A DNA stretch of 64,000 nt, from the NCBI RefSeq assembly GCF_000383915.1, contig NZ_KB912942.1, positions 7,258,388 through 7,322,387 of the forward strand. The letters are read 5' to 3'. Position numbers and translations under genes: made by a program. Source of the DNA: Amycolatopsis benzoatilytica AK 16/65 (GTDB taxonomy: Bacteria > Actinomycetota > Actinomycetes > Mycobacteriales > Pseudonocardiaceae). The notes under the pieces are model-generated. The model did no database searches. It saw only the letters and a program-made list of their open reading frames with translations, and was not told where the DNA came from. Below are positions 1-13,402 of this stretch, one piece after another (position 1 is the stretch's first letter; each line of letters opens with the position of its first letter).

Positions 1-1384
1 CGCGGCTGGCGGCGCCTAACGCGATCTCTGAAGAGCTAGCGCGGACGCGACCGTCGAGCTCGACTAGCTCTTCCACTGATTCCCGGATCCTGGTGAAGGT
101 GGTCTTGACGAAGGTCTTGTCCCAACCGTCGAGGGACTGCCAGTGCCACGCGTCGTGCGTCGGAGGTTCCGACGCAGCGAATGTGCTGTCGAGTGCCGTG
201 TCCGAACGGAAGACTCCCGCGTAGGAGACGTACTCGGCCGCAGGCTTTGGCCCCTCGTAATATGTCACGACCAGTTCGGCTGTGCGCATCAGGCAAACGT
301 GGTGCACGGTAGTTCCGATACCTGACGCCGTACCTGCGGCTGTTTCATCGAAGGGCGGCAGGAACCGTTTCACGAGCCCCAGTTGCCCGAGCTTGGCTCT
401 CGGTTTGCGGCACTCGATCGAACGCGCGTCCTGTGAGCGCATTGCTTCGTAGGCGGCGACGAACATGTCCAGCGGGCTGGTCTCGCGCGGGTCCGGGACT
501 GCGATGGTGATTCCGTCGCACTGTACCGAAAATCTCATGGGAGGATTTCGATTGGGCTCTGCGAGCATTTTCGGCCAGAGGTTCCACGCGATCGTGTCGG
601 CCAGGTAATCGCCCGCTTCCTCATTCGTGCGGTCACCCAGATCGGGATCGATGACTACGATGGTCGTACCGGTCTCATCGGGGCCGAACTGGCGTAGGCC
701 CAGCTGTTCTGCCGCTTCATCGGCCTCGACATTGACGAGCGGTTCGACTACACCGTCCGGAGAGGGAGCTCCCCACCAGTGGCGACCAGTGAATCGGTGC
801 CCGCACAGCCCTTCGCCTTCCGCGTAGCTTTTCCAGAGAGCGCATCCTATTAAACGGGTTTCGTATCCGGTCTCGACTCGGCACCGCGTGTGCACGAGCA
901 CGGTTCCTGGCCGGCTCAGGAGGTAGAAAACCCCTTTGCCGAAACCGTAGGTGCCGCCGCCGAGTTCAGTGTCGCGTGGTTCGCCAATATTTCGGACAAA
1001 GGAAACGAAGTCATGGTTCTCCACGACCGCGTTATCTGCTCGGGTGGGTCCGCCCAGCCCAGTCGTGCCGCGGTCCGACACAGTCAAGATACGAATGGAT
1101 GGTCCCGTGAGCGACTTTCGCAGTGGCAGGTTCTCGGGCGCAGGCAATCGGCGGGCGAGTAGTTCCCGCCAGGCATGCGCGTGTGCCGCGCCCACGACTC
1201 GTAGGTCTAGGCGGTAGTCGACAGTGGCCCCGTCCGCACGGGCGTCCCAGCTGTTTTGTGCCGATTCTCGTACCAGTACAGTCAGCAGATCAAGCTCGGG
1301 ACGGCCGAGTTGATTGCGGATGCCTTCCGCCGCGCTCGCCCCTTCTGGCGGAAATCGTTGGGAGTGCCAAGAAGCATCGGTCAC
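1..1384 (-). CDS. MORC/MutL-like GHKL ATPase of a defence operon (3' part outside window)
   Basis: The gene begins with GTG at 1384 and is still open at position 1, so about 461 codons are visible. The GHKL ATP-binding motifs are clear: an N-box LVRESAQNSWDA near residues 37-48, VSDRGTTGLGG near 102-112 (the Asp-x-Gly motif) and LGGGTYGFGKGVFYLL near 141-156 (the G2 box). This is the ATPase type found in MORC/MutL-like proteins of restriction-type defence operons. The start overlaps the stop of the DUF4420 gene as GTGA, so the two are translationally coupled. Role (inference): an ATP-driven clamp working with the Z1 and nuclease proteins. The C-terminal part, and any downstream AIPR-domain gene, lie outside the window. 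Confidence 0.85.
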   Translation of the reverse strand, partial: MTDASWHSQRFPPEGASAAEGIRNQLGRPELDLLTVLVRESAQNSWDARADGATVDYRLDLRVVGAAHAHAWRELLARRLPAPENLPLRKSLTGPSIRILTVSDRGTTGLGGPTRADNAVVENHDFVSFVRNIGEPRDTELGGGTYGFGKGVFYLLSRPGTVLVHTRCRVETGYETRLIGCALWKSYAEGEGLCGHRFTGRHWWGAPSPDGVVEPLVNVEADEAAEQLGLRQFGPDETGTTIVVIDPDLGDRTNEEAGDYLADTIAWNLWPKMLAEPNRNPPMRFSVQCDGITIAVPDPRETSPLDMFVAAYEAMRSQDARSIECRKPRAKLGQLGLVKRFLPPFDETAAGTASGIGTTVHHVCLMRTAELVVTYYEGPKPAAEYVSYAGVFRSDTALDSTFAASEPPTHDAWHWQSLDGWDKTFVKTTFTRIRESVEELVELDGRVRASSSEIALGAASR

Positions 1385-2382
1385 GCGTTCTCCTCGGTGA
1401 TGCGATGAACCCGACCGCGGATTCCGTCCAGGTCGACGACCGCGGGACGTTGGCCAGAGAGGTCCAAGGTGTATTCGAGGTCAGCGACGTCGGGGGGCAC
1501 CACATGCGGGTCGATCCGGGGAAATTCTTCGTGCACTTCGTACCACCGCTGCTCCCGGATTTCGAAGCGTATGTCGTGGTACCGGCCGGCGTCTGCGGGC
1601 AGGTAGCCCGCCTCGGCGAGTTTGAACAGAAGACCAGTGTCGTCATCGCTGGCCTGTCGGGTCTTCCCGACGAGTTCAGCGAGGGTCATGCCTCGCTCCG
1701 GGACGCGCTCCAGCCGGATCCACACCAGGTCGAGACTCCCGTGAGCAGGCGGTTGGAGTTGGTTGATCCCGTGTATTCGGACAGTCCGGTTCCGGTCAGC
1801 TGTCGAGGTCTTCACCTCGATGCTGTGTGACCCGACCGCGAAATCGTGTCGGCTGCCCGACGGGCCTGTCCAGAAGTCGACCGCGGTGCTCTGTTCGGCC
1901 AGCAACTCGTTGAGCACGATCAGCTCGCCGAACAGCCCGGCGAGCTGACCGACGCCCAACGGTGCGGGTGCATGCCGGAATAGGTCGCGCCAGCGGTTCA
2001 GTACAGTGTAGAACGCTTTGAGCGGACGCTCGGGTGCGATCTCAACTGCGGCGAGCACATCCGAGACCAGGCCGGTGAAAACCTCGTCCAGGTCCCTCCG
2101 AAGACAGCCGAGATCTGCGTAACGCTCGTAGGTATCACCGTTCTCGAGCGGGCGCTCACGGACGGCGAGCGCTGTGCCGCCACGGTCTATTCGGACGTGT
2201 TGATTGGCGGTCAATGGCACGAGGACGTGCCGATTGCCCATGTGATCTACTGCCGCAAGAACTGCACCGGACGGGGTCGTTACCGGAAGTTCGGAGGTCC
2301 GAACGTGATCAGGTCCTGACGTCCCTTCTTCCTCGAGGCGCGTCCAATGGTCGTCGACGACCTTCCGGAGCGACTCGGTCAT
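1381..2382 (-). CDS. PD-(D/E)XK motif protein, DUF4420 (Z1-associated nuclease)
   Basis: The protein has 333 residues, starting with ATG at 2382 (MTESLRKVV); the Z1 stop and this start overlap as TGATG, which decides the start over an upstream in-frame extension. The middle holds a nuclease-like core: FGELIVLNELL supplies the helical acidic residue, and DFAVGSHSIEVKTS supplies the Asp and the E-V-K of a PD-(D/E)XK active site. DUF4420 proteins are known companions of Z1 ATPases and GHKL ATPases in prokaryotic defence operons and are the likely DNA-cutting component. All motif residues look intact. Confidence 0.88.
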   Translation of the reverse strand: MTESLRKVVDDHWTRLEEEGTSGPDHVRTSELPVTTPSGAVLAAVDHMGNRHVLVPLTANQHVRIDRGGTALAVRERPLENGDTYERYADLGCLRRDLDEVFTGLVSDVLAAVEIAPERPLKAFYTVLNRWRDLFRHAPAPLGVGQLAGLFGELIVLNELLAEQSTAVDFWTGPSGSRHDFAVGSHSIEVKTSTADRNRTVRIHGINQLQPPAHGSLDLVWIRLERVPERGMTLAELVGKTRQASDDDTGLLFKLAEAGYLPADAGRYHDIRFEIREQRWYEVHEEFPRIDPHVVPPDVADLEYTLDLSGQRPAVVDLDGIRGRVHRITEENA

Positions 2383-4952
2383 CAGGCGTCCACCGCGTCG
2401 AGAGCGCTCAGATCTTCCTCCTCGATACGAACCTTGGCCAGATCGGTCGCGACGTACTCCCACTCCACGGTCGAATCGTCAGCCGACGGGGCGGGGAAGA
2501 CGAGGCCGACGCCGATCACGTCCTCTGCTGCGTTCAGAGCCCGCCGGTTGTCCTTGCGGTGGGCGGAGGGTTCTGAGTTCTTGTCGATCGCATATAGTGC
2601 GAGCAGCGCGGTGGTCGGGCTTTGTTCGTGGCGGAGCGCTTTGATTTTGTCCTCAGTCAGCTCGCCTTTGACCCCGGACGTATCAAGATCGATTGCCGCA
2701 TCTCTGCGACTCATCAGTGTTTTTATGTCGACAACAGCGGGGTCAGCTCCGTTAAGGGCGGAGCGGGTGACCATGCGGACTGTGTATTCGTTCGCGAAGG
2801 TGAAGGTATTTGGTGCTTCTTCGCCCGCGGAACCGCCGATAAGTGCGACATTCCAGTCCCGGAGCGCGCCAGACATGGAGATGCGCTTCGCGATGTAATC
2901 AGTCAGCAGACGCGAGTTGCACTCCTGCGACTTCTTGTGGAAGCAGTAGTTGCTCAAGAACTCGACGATCAAGTCGTGCGGAACGCCCCGGATCAGTTTG
3001 TCTTGCGAGCGGACATTCTGGTCTTCACGGCCTTCGGTCGATGATTTCTCGACCAATGTGCGTGCCGCCGCCTGGTTGGCTCGCAGCCAATCACGGTCGG
3101 TGCTGAAGTACCGAGTTTGAACTCGCTGGCCACCGTACGCCGACGCGGATGGCACCGCGTTCGTCATCTTGGCCGCTGCGGTGACACGAAGCGAGGGATG
3201 GGTGCGCAGGCGTACGGCGAATGTCATCGGAGTCTTGTCTTCGACCAGATACACGTCAATGTCTCGGCGCATCTCGCTCTCGACGGTCGCGATGTGGCGG
3301 AACCAGTCGCGCAGCTCGTCAGTCATCCAGATTCTCGGCAAATCGGCATAGCCGTTCCGAAAGCCGAACCACCGGCCCATCTGGAGCAGAGTGTCGTATG
3401 CGGACACGGCACGCACGAAGAAACTGACGGCGAGACCTTCGAGCGTAAGCCCGCGAGACAACGTGTTGCCGCCTACCGCAATCGCGACGACTGGGCCATT
3501 CTCGTAGTCCAGGCGATCTTTGCTTCCCGAGTTATCCATGATGATTCGGCAGTCGCGCAGGACATCGGGCAGCGCCTGCTCCAGCTCCTCGAATGCGACC
3601 TTCTGCTCGCTGAACTGCTCTGCGGGTACCCTCGCGGCTTCATGATCCCAAATCTGTCGCAGCTCCTCGCGCAACTCTGGGTCTCCGGAGCGGAGCAGCG
3701 TTTCGCTGTCATCCCGAAGTTCGCTCAGCGGGAATTTGAAGCTGTTGTGCACAGCGGTGTTGACGCTGGTGTGTATCAGCATTGTCGAGTGCGGATTCCC
3801 GGTCTTGCGCACTCGACGTGCTGCGGTCGACAGCCAGAAGTACAAGATCGCGCCGCGGAGGCTGTCGGAAATTACCGGATGAAACCCGTCTGTGTCCGCT
3901 CGTGAGCTCGGGCGTACGAGGTCTACTTCATGCCTTGGGACCTCTCGAATCATGTCATATCCCGCAGGCACGTCCTCGGGATCCTCGCCGTCCATGACTT
4001 CGCGTCCGAAGAGTACTTCGGTACCGAAGTGGCCCTGAGGCTTGGGCAGGTTAACGATGAAGTGCTCCGGGTAGAGATCCTTGGCGGCAGGGTCGATGAG
4101 CAGGTTGGCGAAGGGCGTCGCGGTGTACCCGATGTATCCAGACTTTGGCAGGCGGTTGAGGATCTCGCAGATCAGCGGGTTGATTTTGTCGGTAGCGACC
4201 GTTGCCTGATCGGCTTCATCGTCGATGATAAGAGCTGGGCAGTCGGACAGATATTCGGCGGCTGTCTCTAGCCACGCTGAGAACTTCTCTAGCACACGCG
4301 GGTTCTTTTTGATCACGCACAGGACATGCTGTTTGTTGTTCCTGGCCAGGTACGCGGCTGCGTTGGCAGGTGGTGTGAAGTCCTTGTCTGGATCGGTTAG
4401 CTGGAGCCAACGTGACCGATTGGGGTTTACGAGCTGCTGCACAAGGCGTAGTTGTGTCTGCCGGCGCAAGCCGTTGTGGATACCAGCGAGAACGATGAAG
4501 AGTTTGTATCCGCGGTCGGCCGCCTTCGCCGTAACCGCCGTGAAATTCGTGGTCTTCCCAGACTGTACGTAGCCGACAACGAGTCCCTTGGTCGAGAACT
4601 GCCGCTCCTGCGGATGGCTCAAGAGGGAAACGACCTTGGTGGATGCGTCGTCGAGATCGGCGAGGCTCTCGCTCGACCATCCGGACTTCCGCAGCATCTC
4701 CTCGAGCGCGGGCCAGTACTTGTCCCGTGGACGAGGACCGGTGTACCAGGTGAACCGATTGCCGAGGACGACGCTGCGCGGCTCCTCCCGCTCCCTGATC
4801 CTGATCGTCTCGTGTTCGTGCCGGTCCGCGATCCTCAGCAGCAAATCCTCGGTCGCGCCGAACAGCTCCATCTTCTTCAGCGCGCTTTCAGGAGTGCCGG
4901 AGTCCACCAGGTCGAGGAACGCCGAGTACTGCTGGTCGAACTCGTTGGTCAC
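2382..4952 (-). CDS. Z1 domain-containing helicase-like ATPase
   Basis: An 856-residue protein. Walker A is GYVQSGKTTNF near residues 127-137. A DEAD-like Walker B reads LIIDDEADQ, followed by GYIGYTATPFANLLID, which resembles superfamily II motif III. Later motifs include AVGGNTLSRGLTLEGL and LLQMGRWFGFR, resembling helicase motifs V and VI and typical of Z1 proteins. It is the first gene of the leftward operon and probably the DNA translocase of the system. Base composition is less GC-rich than the housekeeping genes to the right, which fits acquisition by transfer. The function is inferred from family and context. Confidence 0.9.
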   Translation of the reverse strand: MTNEFDQQYSAFLDLVDSGTPESALKKMELFGATEDLLLRIADRHEHETIRIREREEPRSVVLGNRFTWYTGPRPRDKYWPALEEMLRKSGWSSESLADLDDASTKVVSLLSHPQERQFSTKGLVVGYVQSGKTTNFTAVTAKAADRGYKLFIVLAGIHNGLRRQTQLRLVQQLVNPNRSRWLQLTDPDKDFTPPANAAAYLARNNKQHVLCVIKKNPRVLEKFSAWLETAAEYLSDCPALIIDDEADQATVATDKINPLICEILNRLPKSGYIGYTATPFANLLIDPAAKDLYPEHFIVNLPKPQGHFGTEVLFGREVMDGEDPEDVPAGYDMIREVPRHEVDLVRPSSRADTDGFHPVISDSLRGAILYFWLSTAARRVRKTGNPHSTMLIHTSVNTAVHNSFKFPLSELRDDSETLLRSGDPELREELRQIWDHEAARVPAEQFSEQKVAFEELEQALPDVLRDCRIIMDNSGSKDRLDYENGPVVAIAVGGNTLSRGLTLEGLAVSFFVRAVSAYDTLLQMGRWFGFRNGYADLPRIWMTDELRDWFRHIATVESEMRRDIDVYLVEDKTPMTFAVRLRTHPSLRVTAAAKMTNAVPSASAYGGQRVQTRYFSTDRDWLRANQAAARTLVEKSSTEGREDQNVRSQDKLIRGVPHDLIVEFLSNYCFHKKSQECNSRLLTDYIAKRISMSGALRDWNVALIGGSAGEEAPNTFTFANEYTVRMVTRSALNGADPAVVDIKTLMSRRDAAIDLDTSGVKGELTEDKIKALRHEQSPTTALLALYAIDKNSEPSAHRKDNRRALNAAEDVIGVGLVFPAPSADDSTVEWEYVATDLAKVRIEEEDLSALDAVDA

Positions 4953-5214
4953 CGGTCCTCCATCTGCATGTCCAGTCTGGGGTGCCCTCGCCGTCTTGCC
5001 CAGAGTAGGGGCACGTCGGCTGCCTCGTCAGTGCATCGCGCGAAGGCCCCTTGGCCAAGAGGGGAAAACCTGCCGCGGCCGCTCTCCACGATCACTCACG
5101 TCGCGTGGACGGCCGCCTCCGTTACCCCACTTGGTCACGAATTCATCACGGAGGGCGATAGGTCGAACTGGCGTGTCGAATGGGTGTTCGCGTCCGTCCC
5201 AGGGTCGCTCCTTA

Positions 5215-5220
5215 TAGAAT
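5215..5220 (+). promoter_or_regulatory. -10 box for a leaderless cytosine methyltransferase mRNA
   Basis: TAGAAT ends 8 bases before the ATG at 5229 and no Shine-Dalgarno sequence precedes that ATG. This is the TANNNT spacing of actinobacterial leaderless genes and supports the start at 5229. The 276-base gap between the divergent Z1 gene and this gene shows nothing else I can assign. Confidence 0.55.
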
Positions 5221-5228
5221 CGCATCCC

Positions 5229-6314
5229 ATGACCGACGGACAGCCGCCATCGCCGCTGCGTGCGCAGATCGAGATGGTGGATCTCTTCGCCGGTCCAGGC
5301 GGCCTTGATGTCGCCGCGCACTGGCTGGGCGTGTCCGTCGCGGGCATCGAGTGGGACCCGGACGCCTGTGCTACCCGCGCCGCAGCCAATCTGCACACCG
5401 ACGAAGGCGACGTTCGGCTTGCCAAACCAGCCGACTACCCGATGGCCCGCATTCTGAGCGGAGGTCCGCCATGCCAGACGTACACCGTCGCAGGCAACGG
5501 TGCTGGTCGACGCGCGCTCGACCAAGTGCTGTCGTTCGTCGATGCGATGGCCAGGGACGAGGATGTCACTGACGACCTGGCACTGCTCGACGATGTGCGC
5601 ACCGGCCTAGTCCTCCAGCCTTTGCGGTGGGCTATCGAAGCGGGCCAGCCGTACGACGCGATCGTGTTGGAGCAGGTGCCCGCAGTGCTCCCGGTGTGGC
5701 AGGCGTTCGCGCGGGTGCTTGAAAGCCGTGGTTACGGAGTTGACTGCGGTATCCTGCATACCGAAGATTACGGGGTTCCGCAGACCAGACGCCGCGCGAT
5801 TCTCATCGCGCGGCACGGTGAACCGGCGAAACTGCCGAGGCCTACCCATCGCCGATACCGCAAAGGGCAGGACCGCGCCGATGGCGATCAGCGGCTTCTG
5901 CCATGGAAGAGCATGGGTGAGGCGCTGGGTTGGTCAGATCGGTTCACCGTCGTGTCCAACTATGGCACTGGGGGAAACCCGAAAGACCGCGGGAGACGGC
6001 AGTCGGACCAGCCCGCGTTCACTGTGACCGGCAAAGTTTCCCGTAATCGGCTGGTCGGCAGGCCGCGCAACAAGCCGGACCGGTTCACCGACGAGGAAGC
6101 CGGCAAGCTGCAGACATTCCCTCCGGACTATCCGTGGGCGGGTCGGGACGTTGCCCAGCAAATCGGGAACGCGATCCCGCCACGGCTCGCTACGCATGTT
6201 CTTGCCGCGGCGCTCGGCAAGCAGGCAGATGTGGCGATGCTGGACTGGTGTGTGGAAGAGAGCTGGCAAGCCACACGTGCCGGTGTTGACGGGTTGATGA
6301 AAGACGCCGATTAA
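5229..6314 (+). CDS. DNA (cytosine-5-)-methyltransferase
   Basis: A 361-residue C5 methyltransferase. Motif I is VDLFAGPGGLDVAA, motif IV GGPPCQTYTVAG carries the catalytic Cys, motif VIII is QTRRRAILIA and motif X is QIGNAIPPRLA. The usual ENV of motif VI is replaced by LEQVPA, keeping the Glu and changing Asn to Gln. The frame stays open upstream to about 4452, but that part is antisense to the Z1 gene; the TAGAAT box fixes the start at 5229. It is divergent from the Z1/DUF4420/GHKL operon and probably provides self-protection for that system. It converges with the second methyltransferase, 21 bases apart. Confidence 0.9.
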   Translation: MTDGQPPSPLRAQIEMVDLFAGPGGLDVAAHWLGVSVAGIEWDPDACATRAAANLHTDEGDVRLAKPADYPMARILSGGPPCQTYTVAGNGAGRRALDQVLSFVDAMARDEDVTDDLALLDDVRTGLVLQPLRWAIEAGQPYDAIVLEQVPAVLPVWQAFARVLESRGYGVDCGILHTEDYGVPQTRRRAILIARHGEPAKLPRPTHRRYRKGQDRADGDQRLLPWKSMGEALGWSDRFTVVSNYGTGGNPKDRGRRQSDQPAFTVTGKVSRNRLVGRPRNKPDRFTDEEAGKLQTFPPDYPWAGRDVAQQIGNAIPPRLATHVLAAALGKQADVAMLDWCVEESWQATRAGVDGLMKDAD

Positions 6315-6335
6315 CCTTCGACTAGCCGGTTTGGA

Positions 6336-7463
6336 CTAGCCAGTGGCTTCCAGCCTCGCCTTTCCAAGCATCTCCCCGCGAGCCAACGGCATCAGGTAGT
6401 TCTCCGAAAGCCACCGCACCACCGGCACGCACACCGCGTCCCCGAACCCGAACAGCGCCTGGTTGTTCCGGAGCCCGTCCAGCGCGTACTCCCCCGCTCC
6501 CATCAGGCGGGCGTACTCGCGTGGCGTCATCCAGCGCACCCGGACCGCGCCGCGGCCGGCCTGCACCACGGCCTGTTTGGACGATCCGCCGCGCGCGGTG
6601 CGGAGGCAGCCGGAGATGTCGTCCGGGCGGACTTCCCACACCGGTTTTCCGTTGCGGGTCCGGCGGTAGGCGGTGCGGTGCACCAGTTTCTTTCCGGACT
6701 TGAGCTGCGTCAGCCGCTCCAACTGTAGTGGGGACAGGGAGCCGATGAACGCTGCGGTGCGCAGGTCGTTCCACCAGCGTTCGTCGGTGGCGGACAGGCG
6801 TTCCACCAGGTCCGATAGGCCGGTGGCCAACGGCGGCGGAGGGGCGGGCAGTGCGGCCCGGTGGGTCCGCAGGGACGGGTCCGGGCGCAGCCAGTCCGGG
6901 CGCAGTGGCGAGGGGGTGGGCGAGTCCGGGGGCGGGTTCTGGGCGCCGACTATGAACAGCCGGGGCCGGGACTGGGGCACGAAGCGGCGGGCGTCGAGGG
7001 TGAGGACGTCGGCGGAGTAGCCGAGGCGGTTGAGTTCCACGATCGCTGCGCGCAGATCGTTGCCGCCGTGGCTGGTGGCGAGGCCGACGACGTTTTCCAG
7101 GGCGACCACCGGCGGCCGTGCGGAGCCCAGTTCGGCCAGGATGCGGGTGAATTCCCAGAAGGTCGACGAGTGCGAGCCGGCCAGACCGCGGCGCCACCCG
7201 GCCAGCGACAGGTCAGTGCACGGGAACGAGGCCCAGGCCAGGCTGAGGTCGGCGGGCAGATCGGTGCCGCGCACCTTGCCGACATCGCCCAGTACGTACT
7301 GGTGAGCGCCCTGGTCGCGGAAGTGCGCCTGGTACATCGCCTGCTTCGCCGGTTCGATGTCGTTGGACCACGCGACGTCGAACCCGGCCGGTTCCAGGCC
7401 GAGGCGCACGAGACCGATTCCGGCGAAGAACTCCGCGGCGGTGGGCTGACCCGGTACAGGCAT
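6336..7463 (-). CDS. DNA cytosine methyltransferase (Dcm type), partner of vsr
   Basis: A 375-residue C5 methyltransferase distinct from its convergent neighbour. Motif I is EFFAGIGLVRLGLE, motif IV SFPCTDLSLAG carries the catalytic Cys, motif VI is ALENVVG, motif VIII is VPQSRPRLFIVG and the final motif is FGDAVCVPVV. It starts 9 bases after the vsr stop on the same strand, the classic vsr-methyltransferase pairing. The target site cannot be read from sequence; the recognition region lies between the VIII and X motifs. It probably belongs to the same island as the Z1 operon. Confidence 0.9.
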   Translation of the reverse strand: MPVPGQPTAAEFFAGIGLVRLGLEPAGFDVAWSNDIEPAKQAMYQAHFRDQGAHQYVLGDVGKVRGTDLPADLSLAWASFPCTDLSLAGWRRGLAGSHSSTFWEFTRILAELGSARPPVVALENVVGLATSHGGNDLRAAIVELNRLGYSADVLTLDARRFVPQSRPRLFIVGAQNPPPDSPTPSPLRPDWLRPDPSLRTHRAALPAPPPPLATGLSDLVERLSATDERWWNDLRTAAFIGSLSPLQLERLTQLKSGKKLVHRTAYRRTRNGKPVWEVRPDDISGCLRTARGGSSKQAVVQAGRGAVRVRWMTPREYARLMGAGEYALDGLRNNQALFGFGDAVCVPVVRWLSENYLMPLARGEMLGKARLEATG

Positions 7464-7472
7464 GGGGTCACA

Positions 7473-7901
7473 TTAATGGGGGCGGCGTTGCCGGACGGTT
7501 TCGATCACCCGCGAGGCGGCGATATCCGCTGGTTCGTGTTCCCAGATGCGCACCGCGAGCCAGCCCGCCTCCAGCAGTACCGCGTCGGTGTTCGCGTCGC
7601 GGAGGCGGTTGGTTTCGATCTTGGTGCGCCAATAATCCGCGTTGTTCTTCGGCCAGGTGCCGTGTTCCGGGCAGCCGTGCCAGAAGCAGCCGTCCACGAA
7701 AACGGCGACGCGGGCCGGCCCGAACACCAGGTCGGCCTCGCGGCGGACGCCCTTGACCGGACGACGGTGCACCCGATAGCGGAACCCGGCGGCGTGCAGG
7801 ACCTTGCGCAGCGCCATTTCGATCCCGGTGTCCCGGGACTTCTGCTTGCTCATGCGGGCACTCACCGCGGATGTCGTTTCCAGACGCTCCACGGCAGTCA
7901 T
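7473..7901 (-). CDS. vsr: Very short patch repair endonuclease Vsr
   Basis: A 142-residue protein with the full Vsr signature: MSKQKSRDTGIE near the N-terminus, RREADLVF carrying the catalytic Asp, FVDGCFWHGCPEH with metal-site residues, then YWRTKIETNRLRD, and GWLAVRIWEHE at the end. Vsr nicks T:G mismatches left by deamination of 5-methylcytosine and so limits the mutagenic cost of a C5 methyltransferase. The methyltransferase gene follows 9 bases downstream on the same strand. The catalytic residues appear intact. Confidence 0.95.
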   Translation of the reverse strand: MTAVERLETTSAVSARMSKQKSRDTGIEMALRKVLHAAGFRYRVHRRPVKGVRREADLVFGPARVAVFVDGCFWHGCPEHGTWPKNNADYWRTKIETNRLRDANTDAVLLEAGWLAVRIWEHEPADIAASRVIETVRQRRPH

Positions 7902-7929
7902 TGTGGCCCGCGGCTTACCCCTCGACGAT

Positions 7930-8394
7930 TCAGCCTTCGACGACGTGGCCTTCGATCACCCGGTGCTGCGCCGGCCGCGGTTCCTCCGTGACCACCTCGC
8001 TGTCCACCACCATCACCGGGCCGCGCCGCTGATTCGCGTACCGGATGGCGCGCTTTTCGGCGCGGCGCAGCCAGATCCGCCGGGCCACCGCGCGGGTCGG
8101 CGGGAGCAGGAACAGCAGCCCGAACACGTCGCTGACGAAACCGGGCAGCATGATCAGTACGCCGCCGAGCCCGACGAGCATGCCGTCCGTCAGCTCTTTC
8201 TCCGGGTTGCGGCCGGATTGCGCCGCGCCCATGAACGCGCGCATCGCCTTCCCGCCCTCCCGCCGGGCAAGCCACGAGCCCACGACCGCGCCCGCTACCA
8301 GCAGACCGATCGTGCCGAGCACGCCGACGAGCGAGCCGACCGCCCACACGGCGGCGACCTCAGCGATGACGTAGAGCAGGAACACGACAGCCAT
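7930..8394 (-). CDS. fxsA: FxsA family membrane protein
   Basis: A 154-residue protein matching FxsA: several hydrophobic segments (VVFLLYVIAEVAAVWAVG near the start, LGTIGLLVAGAVVGSWLA next), the conserved GLGGVLIMLPGFVSDVFGLL stretch, then LPPTR and a basic, soluble C-terminal tail. In E. coli FxsA affects phage T7 exclusion by the F plasmid; its cellular role in actinobacteria is not known to me. It has its own ATG and ends 28 bases before vsr; it looks like the chromosomal flank of the defence island rather than part of it. Confidence 0.88.
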   Translation of the reverse strand: MAVVFLLYVIAEVAAVWAVGSLVGVLGTIGLLVAGAVVGSWLARREGGKAMRAFMGAAQSGRNPEKELTDGMLVGLGGVLIMLPGFVSDVFGLLFLLPPTRAVARRIWLRRAEKRAIRYANQRRGPVMVVDSEVVTEEPRPAQHRVIEGHVVEG

Positions 8395-8965: not shown

Positions 8966-10150
8966 CTAGACCGGCAGAAGACTCGCCGCGATTAAGCCGG
9001 TGAGCAGCAGGTCCGGTCCGCGGACCAGCTGCCGCACCAGGCCGGCCGGGATCAGGACGCCTTCGTACAGCACCAGGCCCATCGAGCTGAAGTCCAGCGG
9101 GCCCCGGGTCACCGAGCGCACCGCGGCCAGCGCGGCGACCAGCGCCGCCACGACCGCGCCGATCGTCGCCGGGATGCCGAGCAGCAGCACGATCCCGGTC
9201 CAGGCCAGCGCGAGTACGCACAGGAACGCGCAGGTCACGGAGTGCAGGTGCAGATCGGACGCGTCCAGCCAGCGGCGCAGCCCGGGCACGCGATGCAGCT
9301 GCGCGATCGGGGCGGTGAACGGCAGCAGGCCAAGGTAGCCGCCGATGCCGATCAGCCAGACCGAGGTGAGGGCCGGGAAGGTCGCATGGGTGGCGACCAC
9401 GGCTAGGGCCAGGAAGACCGGCAGGCCGAGTGCGGCGCGCCGGGCGAGGACTCCGGTGAGGACGTATCGGGTGACGACGAACCGGCTGGCGAGCGCGTTC
9501 CGCCAGGGCACCGGGCGGCCAGCCGGGAGCAACGCCCAGACGTCCAGGAAAGCCGCAGAAGTCCGGCGCACCATCCGTTCGGCGTGGTGCCGGATCAGAG
9601 TGGGCCGCGTAACCATGTGCGGCAACGAAGCGGACCAGGCCAGTGGCACAGCGGCGAGAGCGGCGGCTACCAGGTATGTCCACAGTGGAACGATCAGCGG
9701 CAGTGCGAGAGTCAGCGGCAGCAGGGATTCGCCGGGGAACGGGCGGCGGCGGCCCAGCGCCAGGGCCAATGCGGCGATGACCACGACAAGCGCGATCGGG
9801 CCGGCGAATGAGCTGGGGAAGCCGATGAGCATCCCGGAAACAGCGAAGAAATACCCGGCGGTCGCGAATCGGGCGGCCCAGTCCAGCACCAGCCGTTGGG
9901 TGAGCGCGGCGGGCCGCTGGCCGTTGAAGTCGTTCCAGGTCAGCGTGGCTGGGTGGGCCCACAGGTAGCCGCGGCGCAGCGTCGCGCGCCAAGCCAGGGC
10001 GAGGCCGGTGCACAGTACGAGCAGGCTGCCGGAAGCGCCGACCGGGGCACTGCCGATCAGCTGGCCGCGCACCAGTTCGGTGTTGTAGAACGGCGATCCC
10101 AGCAGCCCGACCGCGATGACCAGGGCCAGGACCAGGTCCGGCCGCTTCAC
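8966..10150 (-). CDS. Multi-pass membrane protein, probable ABC transporter permease
   Basis: About 394 residues starting with GTG at 10150, overlapping the ATPase stop as GTGA. The start VKRPDLVLALVIAVGLLGS is followed by roughly ten hydrophobic segments, for example TAGYFFAVSGMLIGF, LPLIVPLWTYLVAAALAAV and LLTGLIAASLLPV at the end. No enzymatic motif is visible. Tight coupling to an ABC ATPase gene marks it as that protein's membrane partner. The ATPase lacks a drug-exporter fusion, so the pair could be an exporter of unknown cargo. Confidence 0.7.
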   Translation of the reverse strand: MKRPDLVLALVIAVGLLGSPFYNTELVRGQLIGSAPVGASGSLLVLCTGLALAWRATLRRGYLWAHPATLTWNDFNGQRPAALTQRLVLDWAARFATAGYFFAVSGMLIGFPSSFAGPIALVVVIAALALALGRRRPFPGESLLPLTLALPLIVPLWTYLVAAALAAVPLAWSASLPHMVTRPTLIRHHAERMVRRTSAAFLDVWALLPAGRPVPWRNALASRFVVTRYVLTGVLARRAALGLPVFLALAVVATHATFPALTSVWLIGIGGYLGLLPFTAPIAQLHRVPGLRRWLDASDLHLHSVTCAFLCVLALAWTGIVLLLGIPATIGAVVAALVAALAAVRSVTRGPLDFSSMGLVLYEGVLIPAGLVRQLVRGPDLLLTGLIAASLLPV

Positions 10151-10731
10151 AGGTCCACCAGGTAGTCCGCGACCTCGTCCGCCAGCGGCGGGTGATGACT
10201 CGCGACGATCACCGCCGCACCGCGGCCGACGCTCGTCTTGACCAGGGTGGACAGCCACTCCCGGCCCTCCGCGTCGAGCGCGCGTTCCGGCTCGTCCAGC
10301 AGCAGCACCTCGTGCGGACGGGCGACCGCGGCATGCAGCAGCAGCCGACGGCGCTGGCCGGCGGACAGCTGCGCCGCGGGCACCTCGGGTGCGGGGATCG
10401 GGCCGTCGGCCAGTTCGCCGCCGAAGGAACTGCGCAGCAGGTCCAGATGCTGGCGCGGGGTGAGTTCGTCGAACAGCGCGGAATCGTCGAGCAGCACCGA
10501 GACCCGGCGACGGAAAGCGGCGGACCGCTCGTCGGGCGGTCCGCCGCAGATCGTCACGGAACCGGATGTGGGCACTTGGGTCCCGTACAGGCAGCGCAGC
10601 AGGGTCGATTTGCCCGCCCCGTTCGCGCCGCGGACGACCAGGCATTCGCCCGCGTCCACGGCCAGGTCGAGCCCGCTGAACAACTCGGTATCCCCGGCGA
10701 TGATCCCCAGGTCTTGGGTGGTGACAAGCAC
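10147..10731 (-). CDS. ABC transporter ATP-binding protein
   Basis: About 194 residues from GTG at 10731 (VLVTTQDLGIIAG), which has a purine-rich stretch just upstream; another GTG at 10752 is in frame. Walker A is RGANGAGKSTLL, the signature is AQLSAGQRRRLLL and Walker B is VLLLDEPERALD, with the switch His in VIVASHHPP. It is short for an ABC ATPase, like CcmA-type subunits. It is the partner of the overlapping downstream permease. Confidence 0.85.
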   Translation of the reverse strand: MLVTTQDLGIIAGDTELFSGLDLAVDAGECLVVRGANGAGKSTLLRCLYGTQVPTSGSVTICGGPPDERSAAFRRRVSVLLDDSALFDELTPRQHLDLLRSSFGGELADGPIPAPEVPAAQLSAGQRRRLLLHAAVARPHEVLLLDEPERALDAEGREWLSTLVKTSVGRGAAVIVASHHPPLADEVADYLVDL

Positions 10732-10762
10732 GAAACCCCCTCGGCTGATCACCCCAAGATAA

Positions 10763-12721
10763 TCACTTCAAGTACGCCTCCGCTTGCAGCGTGAACAGCT
10801 CCGCGTAGCCGGCGTCGGCCGCCATCAGTTCCTCGTGCGTGCCGTATTCCGCGACTTTTCCGTGGTCGAGCAGCAGAATGCGCTCGGCCTGGCGGACCGT
10901 GGAGAACCGGTGCGAGATGTAGAGCGTGGTGCGGCCCTGCGACAGCGCCTGCAGCCGGTCGAACAGGTCGTGCTCGGCCTGCGCGTCCAGCGCTGAGGTC
11001 GGCTCGTCCAGGATCATGATCGGCGCTTCCCGCTGGAAAGCCCTGGCCAGCGCGATCTTCTGCCATTCGCCGCCGGACAACGAAACGCCCTGGTCGAACC
11101 AGCGGCCGAGTGGGCTGTCGTAGCCGGTCGGCAGCCGCATGATGCGCTCGTCGGCACCGGCGCGGCGAGCGGAGTCCTCGATGTGCGCGCGATCGGTGAG
11201 CCGGTTCAGGTCGCCGAGGCCGATGTTTTCCGCGGCGGTGCCCTGGTAGGTCACGTAATCCTGGAACATCGCGCTGATTTTGGTGCGCAGCGCGACCGGG
11301 TCGTATTCCCGGATGTCCACGTCGTCCAGCAGGATCCGGCCCGCGGTCGGGTCGTACAACCGGCACAGCAGTTTGAACAGCGTCGACTTGCCCGCGCCGT
11401 TGCGGCCCACCACGGCGACGGTTTCGCCGGGCTTGATCTCGAAACTGACGCCGTGCAGCGCGGGTTCTTCCGCGCCGGGGTAGGTGAAGCTGACCGATTC
11501 GAACCGGATGTGTCCATCCACAGTGGACGGAAGGGGCCGCGGCCGCTCCGGTGCGGTGATCTCCGGTTCAGTGGCCAGGAATTTGTACAGCGTGTCCAGG
11601 TAGAGATTGTTCTCGTACATCCCGGAGAACGAGTTGAACAGCCCGCTGACCGAGGCTTGCACCGAGGTCGCGGCCGCGGTGTAGAGCGCCAGATCGCCGA
11701 GCGTGAGCTTCCCGCCCACTGCCTGCAGCGCGATGTACAGCGCGATCGCCGAGCCGACGAGCGTGCTCAGCAGTCCCCAGGACGTTGAGTTGACGTTCCG
11801 CTTCACGGTCAGCTTCCGCTGCCGTTCGTAGGACACCAGGCCGAGCTTCTGGAACCGGTCCACGAAGTACGGGCCGAGCCCGAACAGCTTGGTCTCCTTG
11901 GCGTAGGTGTCGGTGGTGACCAGCGAGGACAGGTAATCCATCCGCCGTTTGATCGGCGACATCATCAGGGTCAGCCAGAACGCCCGCGAGCCGTAGCGCG
12001 ACTGCGAGATGAACGCCGGGATCGGGGCGATCAGGGCGACCAGCGCGAGCAGCGGGCTGATCGACACGAGCAGGGCGACCATGCTGGTGAAGGTGATCAA
12101 GGTGCGGATCAGGCCGAGCGCCGAGGTCATCATCGTCAGCGGCCGGGTCGGTGCTTCCTGCGCGGCCTGGCGCAGCATGTCGTAGGACGCCGAACCTTCG
12201 AAGTACGCCAGGTGCAGTTCGCTCGAATGCCGCATCACTTGGTGCCGGATGGTGAGCGTCATCCGTTCCTGCAGCAGGGATTGCGCGATCGTGGTGATCG
12301 CGCTGCTGATCGCGGTCCCGGCCAGCACGCCGAACTGGAACAGCGTGATGCGCACGATGTCGCCGGTTGTCCCGCGGTGCTGGATCGCCGCGACTACCGA
12401 GTCGAGCAGCAGTTTCGCGACGTACGCGGTGACTGTCGGCAGCAGCCCGGACGCCAGCGTGACGACGGCGAGCAGGATGGTCAGCGTCGGGCTGGCTTGC
12501 CAGGTCAGCTTCGCGACCTTGGGCAGGCCGCGGACCGTGCCGCCGACCGACGTGCGCATGCGTGTCAGCCGCGCCCGCAGCCCTTTCGGCTGCTCCGGTG
12601 GTTCCGGCTCCGGAATGTCGACCGGACCGGTGAGACCGCTGTCCGGCACCGTTTGCGGGATCCGCCGACGGCCGCGACGGCCGAGGGCTATTTCGATCCC
12701 GCCCCCACCGCCGGGGATCAC
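10763..12721 (-). CDS. ABC exporter, fused membrane and ATPase domains
   Basis: About 652 residues from GTG at 12721, overlapping the TetR stop as GTGA. An exporter membrane domain with about six segments begins near residue 60 (PTLTILLAVVTLASGLLPTV). The nucleotide-binding domain follows, with Walker A VVGRNGAGKSTLF, signature VSLSGGEWQKIALARAF, Walker [14 protein letters not shown] and the switch motif YISHRFST. Half-transporters of this type act as dimers. Coupling to the TetR gene suggests control by that repressor and a drug or lipid efflux role (inference). Confidence 0.88.
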   Translation of the reverse strand: MIPGGGGGIEIALGRRGRRRIPQTVPDSGLTGPVDIPEPEPPEQPKGLRARLTRMRTSVGGTVRGLPKVAKLTWQASPTLTILLAVVTLASGLLPTVTAYVAKLLLDSVVAAIQHRGTTGDIVRITLFQFGVLAGTAISSAITTIAQSLLQERMTLTIRHQVMRHSSELHLAYFEGSASYDMLRQAAQEAPTRPLTMMTSALGLIRTLITFTSMVALLVSISPLLALVALIAPIPAFISQSRYGSRAFWLTLMMSPIKRRMDYLSSLVTTDTYAKETKLFGLGPYFVDRFQKLGLVSYERQRKLTVKRNVNSTSWGLLSTLVGSAIALYIALQAVGGKLTLGDLALYTAAATSVQASVSGLFNSFSGMYENNLYLDTLYKFLATEPEITAPERPRPLPSTVDGHIRFESVSFTYPGAEEPALHGVSFEIKPGETVAVVGRNGAGKSTLFKLLCRLYDPTAGRILLDDVDIREYDPVALRTKISAMFQDYVTYQGTAAENIGLGDLNRLTDRAHIEDSARRAGADERIMRLPTGYDSPLGRWFDQGVSLSGGEWQKIALARAFQREAPIMILDEPTSALDAQAEHDLFDRLQALSQGRTTLYISHRFSTVRQAERILLLDHGKVAEYGTHEELMAADAGYAELFTLQAEAYLK

Positions 12722-13317
12722 GCGTGCACCGAACCGTGCAGGAAGACGTCGATCATCTCGGCGGTCGCCGGGCCGCCGGGCAGCTGGCGCGAGTGCGAGA
12801 ACAGCAGCGAGAGGAACAGCGACGCGGCCTTGTCCACCGGCAGCCGCAGCCGCTCGGCGTCCGGGACGAACAGTTCGCGCACCGCGCGCTGCATCGCCTC
12901 CAGCGACTCGCGCCGGCTGTCCCCGGTGACCGACTTGCGGTTGCGGGCCTCCTCCGGGCTCAGCCGTCCCTTGCCGGCCCTGGCCGCGCCCATCACCGCG
13001 CCCATCCGCTGCATGTGCGCGTTCAGCGCTTCGACCGCCTCGGCCAGCCGCTTCTCCAGCGGCAGGTCGGCCGGGATCTCGCCGATCATCTCCAGTGCTT
13101 CCGCCGGGTCGAGCGCGGCTTCCACGCACGCGTCGAACAGCTCGTCCTTGTCCTGAAAGACCCGGAAGATGGTGCCTTCGCCGATGCCGGCCGCGCGGGC
13201 GATCTGCGCCGTGGTGACCCCGCGGCCGTGTTCGACCACCAACGGCAGCACCGCGCGGACGATCATCCGCCGCCGGTCGTCAGGCGCCATGCCAGGCGCT
13301 CTTTTTCTGGTTTCCAT
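12718..13317 (-). CDS. TetR family transcriptional regulator of the downstream ABC exporter
   Basis: A 199-residue protein with an N-terminal TetR helix-turn-helix: GVTTAQIARAAGIGEGTIF, then RVFQDKDELFDACV, the usual helix 3/4 region near residues 33-65. The C-terminal ligand domain is variable. It is the first gene of a two-gene unit with the exporter. A 20-base palindrome sits immediately upstream of its -10 box, so it probably represses itself and the exporter. Confidence 0.9.
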   Translation of the reverse strand: METRKRAPGMAPDDRRRMIVRAVLPLVVEHGRGVTTAQIARAAGIGEGTIFRVFQDKDELFDACVEAALDPAEALEMIGEIPADLPLEKRLAEAVEALNAHMQRMGAVMGAARAGKGRLSPEEARNRKSVTGDSRRESLEAMQRAVRELFVPDAERLRLPVDKAASLFLSLLFSHSRQLPGGPATAEMIDVFLHGSVHA

Positions 13318-13324
13318 GCCGCCG

Positions 13325-13330
13325 ACAGTA
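13325..13330 (-). promoter_or_regulatory. -10 box for leaderless tetR-exporter mRNA
   Basis: On the minus strand TACTGT lies 7 bases before the ATG at 13317. It abuts the palindrome at 13331-13350, so a repressor bound there would cover the promoter. Confidence 0.5.
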
Positions 13331-13350
13331 CGGAGTGAGTGCTCACTCCG
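13331..13350. promoter_or_regulatory. Palindromic TetR operator
   Basis: CGGAGTGAGTGCTCACTCCG has 9-base arms around a TG centre. It sits directly upstream of the -10 box of the tetR-exporter unit, the usual place for an autoregulatory TetR operator. Confidence 0.75.
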
Positions 13351-13360
13351 TCAACGGGAT

Positions 13361-13402
13361 AAAACACGGGCCGTGCCCTGGCCTGGACACGGCCCGCGTT
13401 TT
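13361..13402 (-). terminator. Terminator of the bkdABC operon
   Basis: AAAACACGGGCCGTG pairs with CACGGCCCGCGTTTT with one mismatch, across a 12-base loop. It directly follows the bkdC stop codon; the run of A on the plus strand gives the U tract for minus-strand transcripts. Confidence 0.7.

Follow-up and report, generated by a model that had tools for sequence, protein, structure and literature searches.

Which function is served by a mobile set of five tightly linked genes that travels with a DNA-methylating enzyme in a soil actinomycete? The question is raised by the left end of a 64,000 nt window (the whole stretch of DNA analysed) from Amycolatopsis benzoatilytica AK 16/65, contig NZ_KB912942.1, positions 7,258,388–7,322,387. 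Together, the cassette and its methylating enzyme probably serve to destroy unmarked foreign DNA, and a restriction-like defence cassette is, taken as a whole, the explanation that we favour with reasonable confidence. It is probably a mobile defence cassette of a kind already predicted: a system type proposed in 2008 is seen here in full, in scattered actinobacterial form, with two extra constant subunits, O298 and DUF6339.

A conserved core with an exchangeable methyltransferase

Conservation was assessed across 81 cassette loci, that of the window included (L002). The translocase and the GHKL ATPase are kept in all 81, with residues E406 and H410 in a putative S5-fold stretch of the ATPase invariant throughout. 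The DUF4420 nuclease was not found in four loci (L036, L045, L081 and L083). Universal translocase and ATPase with an occasionally missing nuclease would suit a non-cleaving or abortive variant, in which unmethylated DNA sensed by the core would lead to a block of replication or to cell death, DUF4420 being an accessory as in BREX-like logic. We regard this as unlikely, though the strongest of the alternatives, as the DUF4420 catalytic residues E153, D180, E189 and K191 (E189xK191) are invariant in all 77 loci that have the domain. As to the four exceptions, L036 and L081 have other helicases together with an MZB-domain gene as neighbours, L083 adjoins a UvrD-like helicase and a large gene, and L045 has no defence-like helicase among the two neighbouring genes scanned. 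The helicase neighbours of the first three give the impression that the absent DUF4420 part is provided by a different system.

A C5 methyltransferase is present in 80 of the 81 loci, exchanged rather than lost. This bears on the initial annotation, which had proposed a modification-dependent or methylation-protected antiphage system. The GHKL, nuclease and translocase parts fit either logic, but a methyltransferase so consistently replaced would be intolerable to a type IV-like system attacking that mark; the modification-dependent half of the proposal is therefore improbable, whilst protection by methylation agrees with the favoured explanation, and the initial interpretation is partly supported. 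A variant directed against some mark other than that of the cassette methyltransferase is conceivable.

The window enzyme belongs to one of the methyltransferase families here termed F0, F1 and F2, namely F2, found in 26 of the 81 loci. The Pro-Pro-Cys or Phe-Pro-Cys pattern is intact in all 52 F0 and 26 F2 rows, and clustering at 50% identity puts the F2 recognition regions into a single group (25/25 long enough to compare, of 26).

A catalytically dead methyltransferase domain as a possible reader

In 39 of the 81 loci the DUF6339 gene runs on, in one open frame, into a C5-methyltransferase domain (in L016, DUF6339 at 134–237 and DNA_methylase at 301–608). The catalytic Pro-Cys of motif IV has become Pro-Arg in every one of these (38 of family F1, plus L066) and likewise in all 120 matches listed among 831 homologues of the L016 fusion (119 by pattern, P0342 by eye). 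The general form of motif I and of the ENV motif is retained, but the fused rows have lost the second Arg of motif VIII and most of them have His in place of the motif X Asn. Amongst free-standing F1 members, L048 and L049 have the Arg and L009 and L010 retain the Cys. Many fused proteins are publicly named DNA cytosine methyltransferases, a designation made doubtful by loss of the catalytic residue.

In 38 of the 39 loci the dead domain has an F0 or F2 enzyme alongside, the exception (L026) lying at a contig end. Its target-recognition region, the right border of which is approximate (placed at a fixed offset, as no motif could be located there), is better conserved than the remainder of the domain (~0.75 against 0.66–0.67 at core identity 0.75–0.80). 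Loss of the catalytic residue suggests that the dead methylase domain may serve the cassette as an internal reader of its self mark. We know of no bacterial parallel for a pseudo-methyltransferase as a self/non-self reader, the usual comparison being the eukaryotic DNMT3L.

Were the methyltransferase a swappable specificity subunit, a change of target on F0/F2 exchange should also alter the reader-like domain. That idea is weakened, since the recognition region of the dead domain hardly shifts with partner family: identity for same versus different partner is 0.754 (222 pairs) versus 0.750 (42) at core identity 0.75–0.80, and 0.807 (107) versus 0.792 (13) at 0.80–0.90. At 0.70–0.75 the values are 0.706 (61) versus 0.666 (73), and there the rest of the dead domain drops likewise (0.621 versus 0.569). 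The dead domain would thus be a constant target reader, from which we infer that F0 and F2 give the same mark. Because the methyltransferases are exchanged while the core stays fixed, the location of target specificity is directly testable.

The DUF6339 of the window itself lacks the methyltransferase extension, as do the other short-type proteins (34 of 81 loci in all, including L072, cut by a contig end). A different C-terminal extension of ~230 aa is found in the remaining eight (L007, L008, L009, L010, L013, L027, L041 and L053), with a DUF3320-like stretch in four of five scanned, one above cut-off.

The DUF6339 model is almost all helical (mean pLDDT 91.5, pTM 0.85). O298, which gave no significant family match in profile searches, is predicted to comprise an Ig-like sandwich (~10–152) followed by a helical C-terminal part (mean pLDDT 89.1, pTM 0.56). 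The fold matches of both models carry no functional weight.

Relationship to known systems

Among the closest known systems is the third type of MORC/paraMORC restriction-modification operon (Iyer, Abhiman and Aravind 2008). The text passages on this type make no mention of O298, DUF6339 or the DUF6339/pseudo-methyltransferase fusion, its figure having uncharacterised X and Z domains, and we found no published description of the two constant subunits. Of the MORC/MutL-like assignment made in the initial annotation, a paraMORC2-type ATPase stands; the MORC proper motif GhXhhpXXRhl is missing from the window protein and is matched by 2 of the 81 relatives. Three-gene systems with a PLD+B3 nuclease differ from the cassette in lacking GHKL, O298 and DUF6339.

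The leftward operon with PD-(D/E)XK and GHKL genes, the two C5 methyltransferases and vsr were all recognised correctly at the outset (Table 1). The initial annotation had also likened the parts to those of the Mza family, which has an AIPR subunit, and expected an AIPR gene beyond the left end of the window. O298 and DUF6339 are what follows there instead. Profile searching found no AIPR (PF10592) at E ≤ 0.001 in the complete genome; the profile matches 1 of 14 control genomes. MzaC and MzaD scores lie below the equivalog levels (385 of 1500 bits and 103 of 420 bits), and GHKL, O298 and DUF6339 have no Mza match in NCBIfam or PADLOC, libraries that may not model every Mza subunit. We therefore reject Mza membership, and the same missing AIPR and missing matches render a diverged Mza system, its effector lost or replaced, quite improbable. 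The PADLOC candidate PDC-M33 gave weak M33A and M33C matches and no M33B match was seen (letters per PADLOC names).

DISARM is a methylation-linked multi-gene defence, as the cassette would be. The MZB-domain gene beside L036 and L081 is of the kind adjoining DrmA in L094, but there is no DrmA-like match among the cassette proteins, the set covered, the L036 and L081 neighbours lying outside the PADLOC scan.

Genomic setting

The cassette lies between the SCP2 and FxsA genes, at a site that covers genome positions 7256138–7266320 (window ~−2250 to 7930).

Table 1 Features of the cassette and its right flank (negative positions lie left of the window)
Feature	Window position	Strand	L002 position	Basis or remark
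DUF6339, 264 aa	−1455 to −2249	minus	9751–10545	Pfam 4e-15
O298, 298 aa	−559 to −1455	minus	10545–11441	Left of GHKL gene
paraMORC2-type GHKL ATPase, 648 aa	1–1384, on to −562	minus	11438–13384	GHKL motifs, ExxxH
DUF4420 PD-(D/E)XK nuclease, 333 aa	1381–2382	minus		Pfam 2.3e-61
Cassette region gene	2382–4952	minus		
C5 methyltransferase, family F2	5229–6314	plus		Pfam 8.7e-30; canonical PPCQ motif
Second C5 methyltransferase	6336–7463	minus		Pfam 1.3e-41; resident module, outside cassette
Vsr endonuclease	7473–7901	minus		TIGR00632, 113.7 bits; resident module
FxsA	7930–8394	minus		Pfam 2e-33; right flank of insertion hotspot

A Vsr gene within 4 kb in 68 of the 81 loci and the MutL-like ATPase motifs might point away from defence, to a cluster for DNA mismatch or very-short-patch repair linked with 5-methylcytosine. 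This is the least credible alternative: occurrence is patchy (O298 in 5 of 296 genomes of the phylum), the insertion hotspot also carries known defence systems and the Vsr of the window belongs to a separate resident module. The second methyltransferase of the window, part of that module, groups with no other methyltransferase from the 81 loci and, with Vsr, occurs without the core in two other genomes (G026 and G012, ~85% DNA identity).

FxsA is present in 60 of 60 genomes of the genus, and the SCP2–FxsA site, found in 58, is a hotspot of the Amycolatopsis chromosome at which defence cargo is exchanged, being nearly empty in 15 and holding at least 6.8 kb in 14. Elsewhere in the A. benzoatilytica genome, two C5-methyltransferase matches (L104:943–6600 and L105:1825–7725) are each split by ~4.2 kb, with an antisense tyrosine-recombinase gene inside the split in the former and an antisense frame of equal length in the latter, and two 822-aa C5-methyltransferase frames (G000:C1:5525–6679 and 7678682–7679836) have nearly equal scores.
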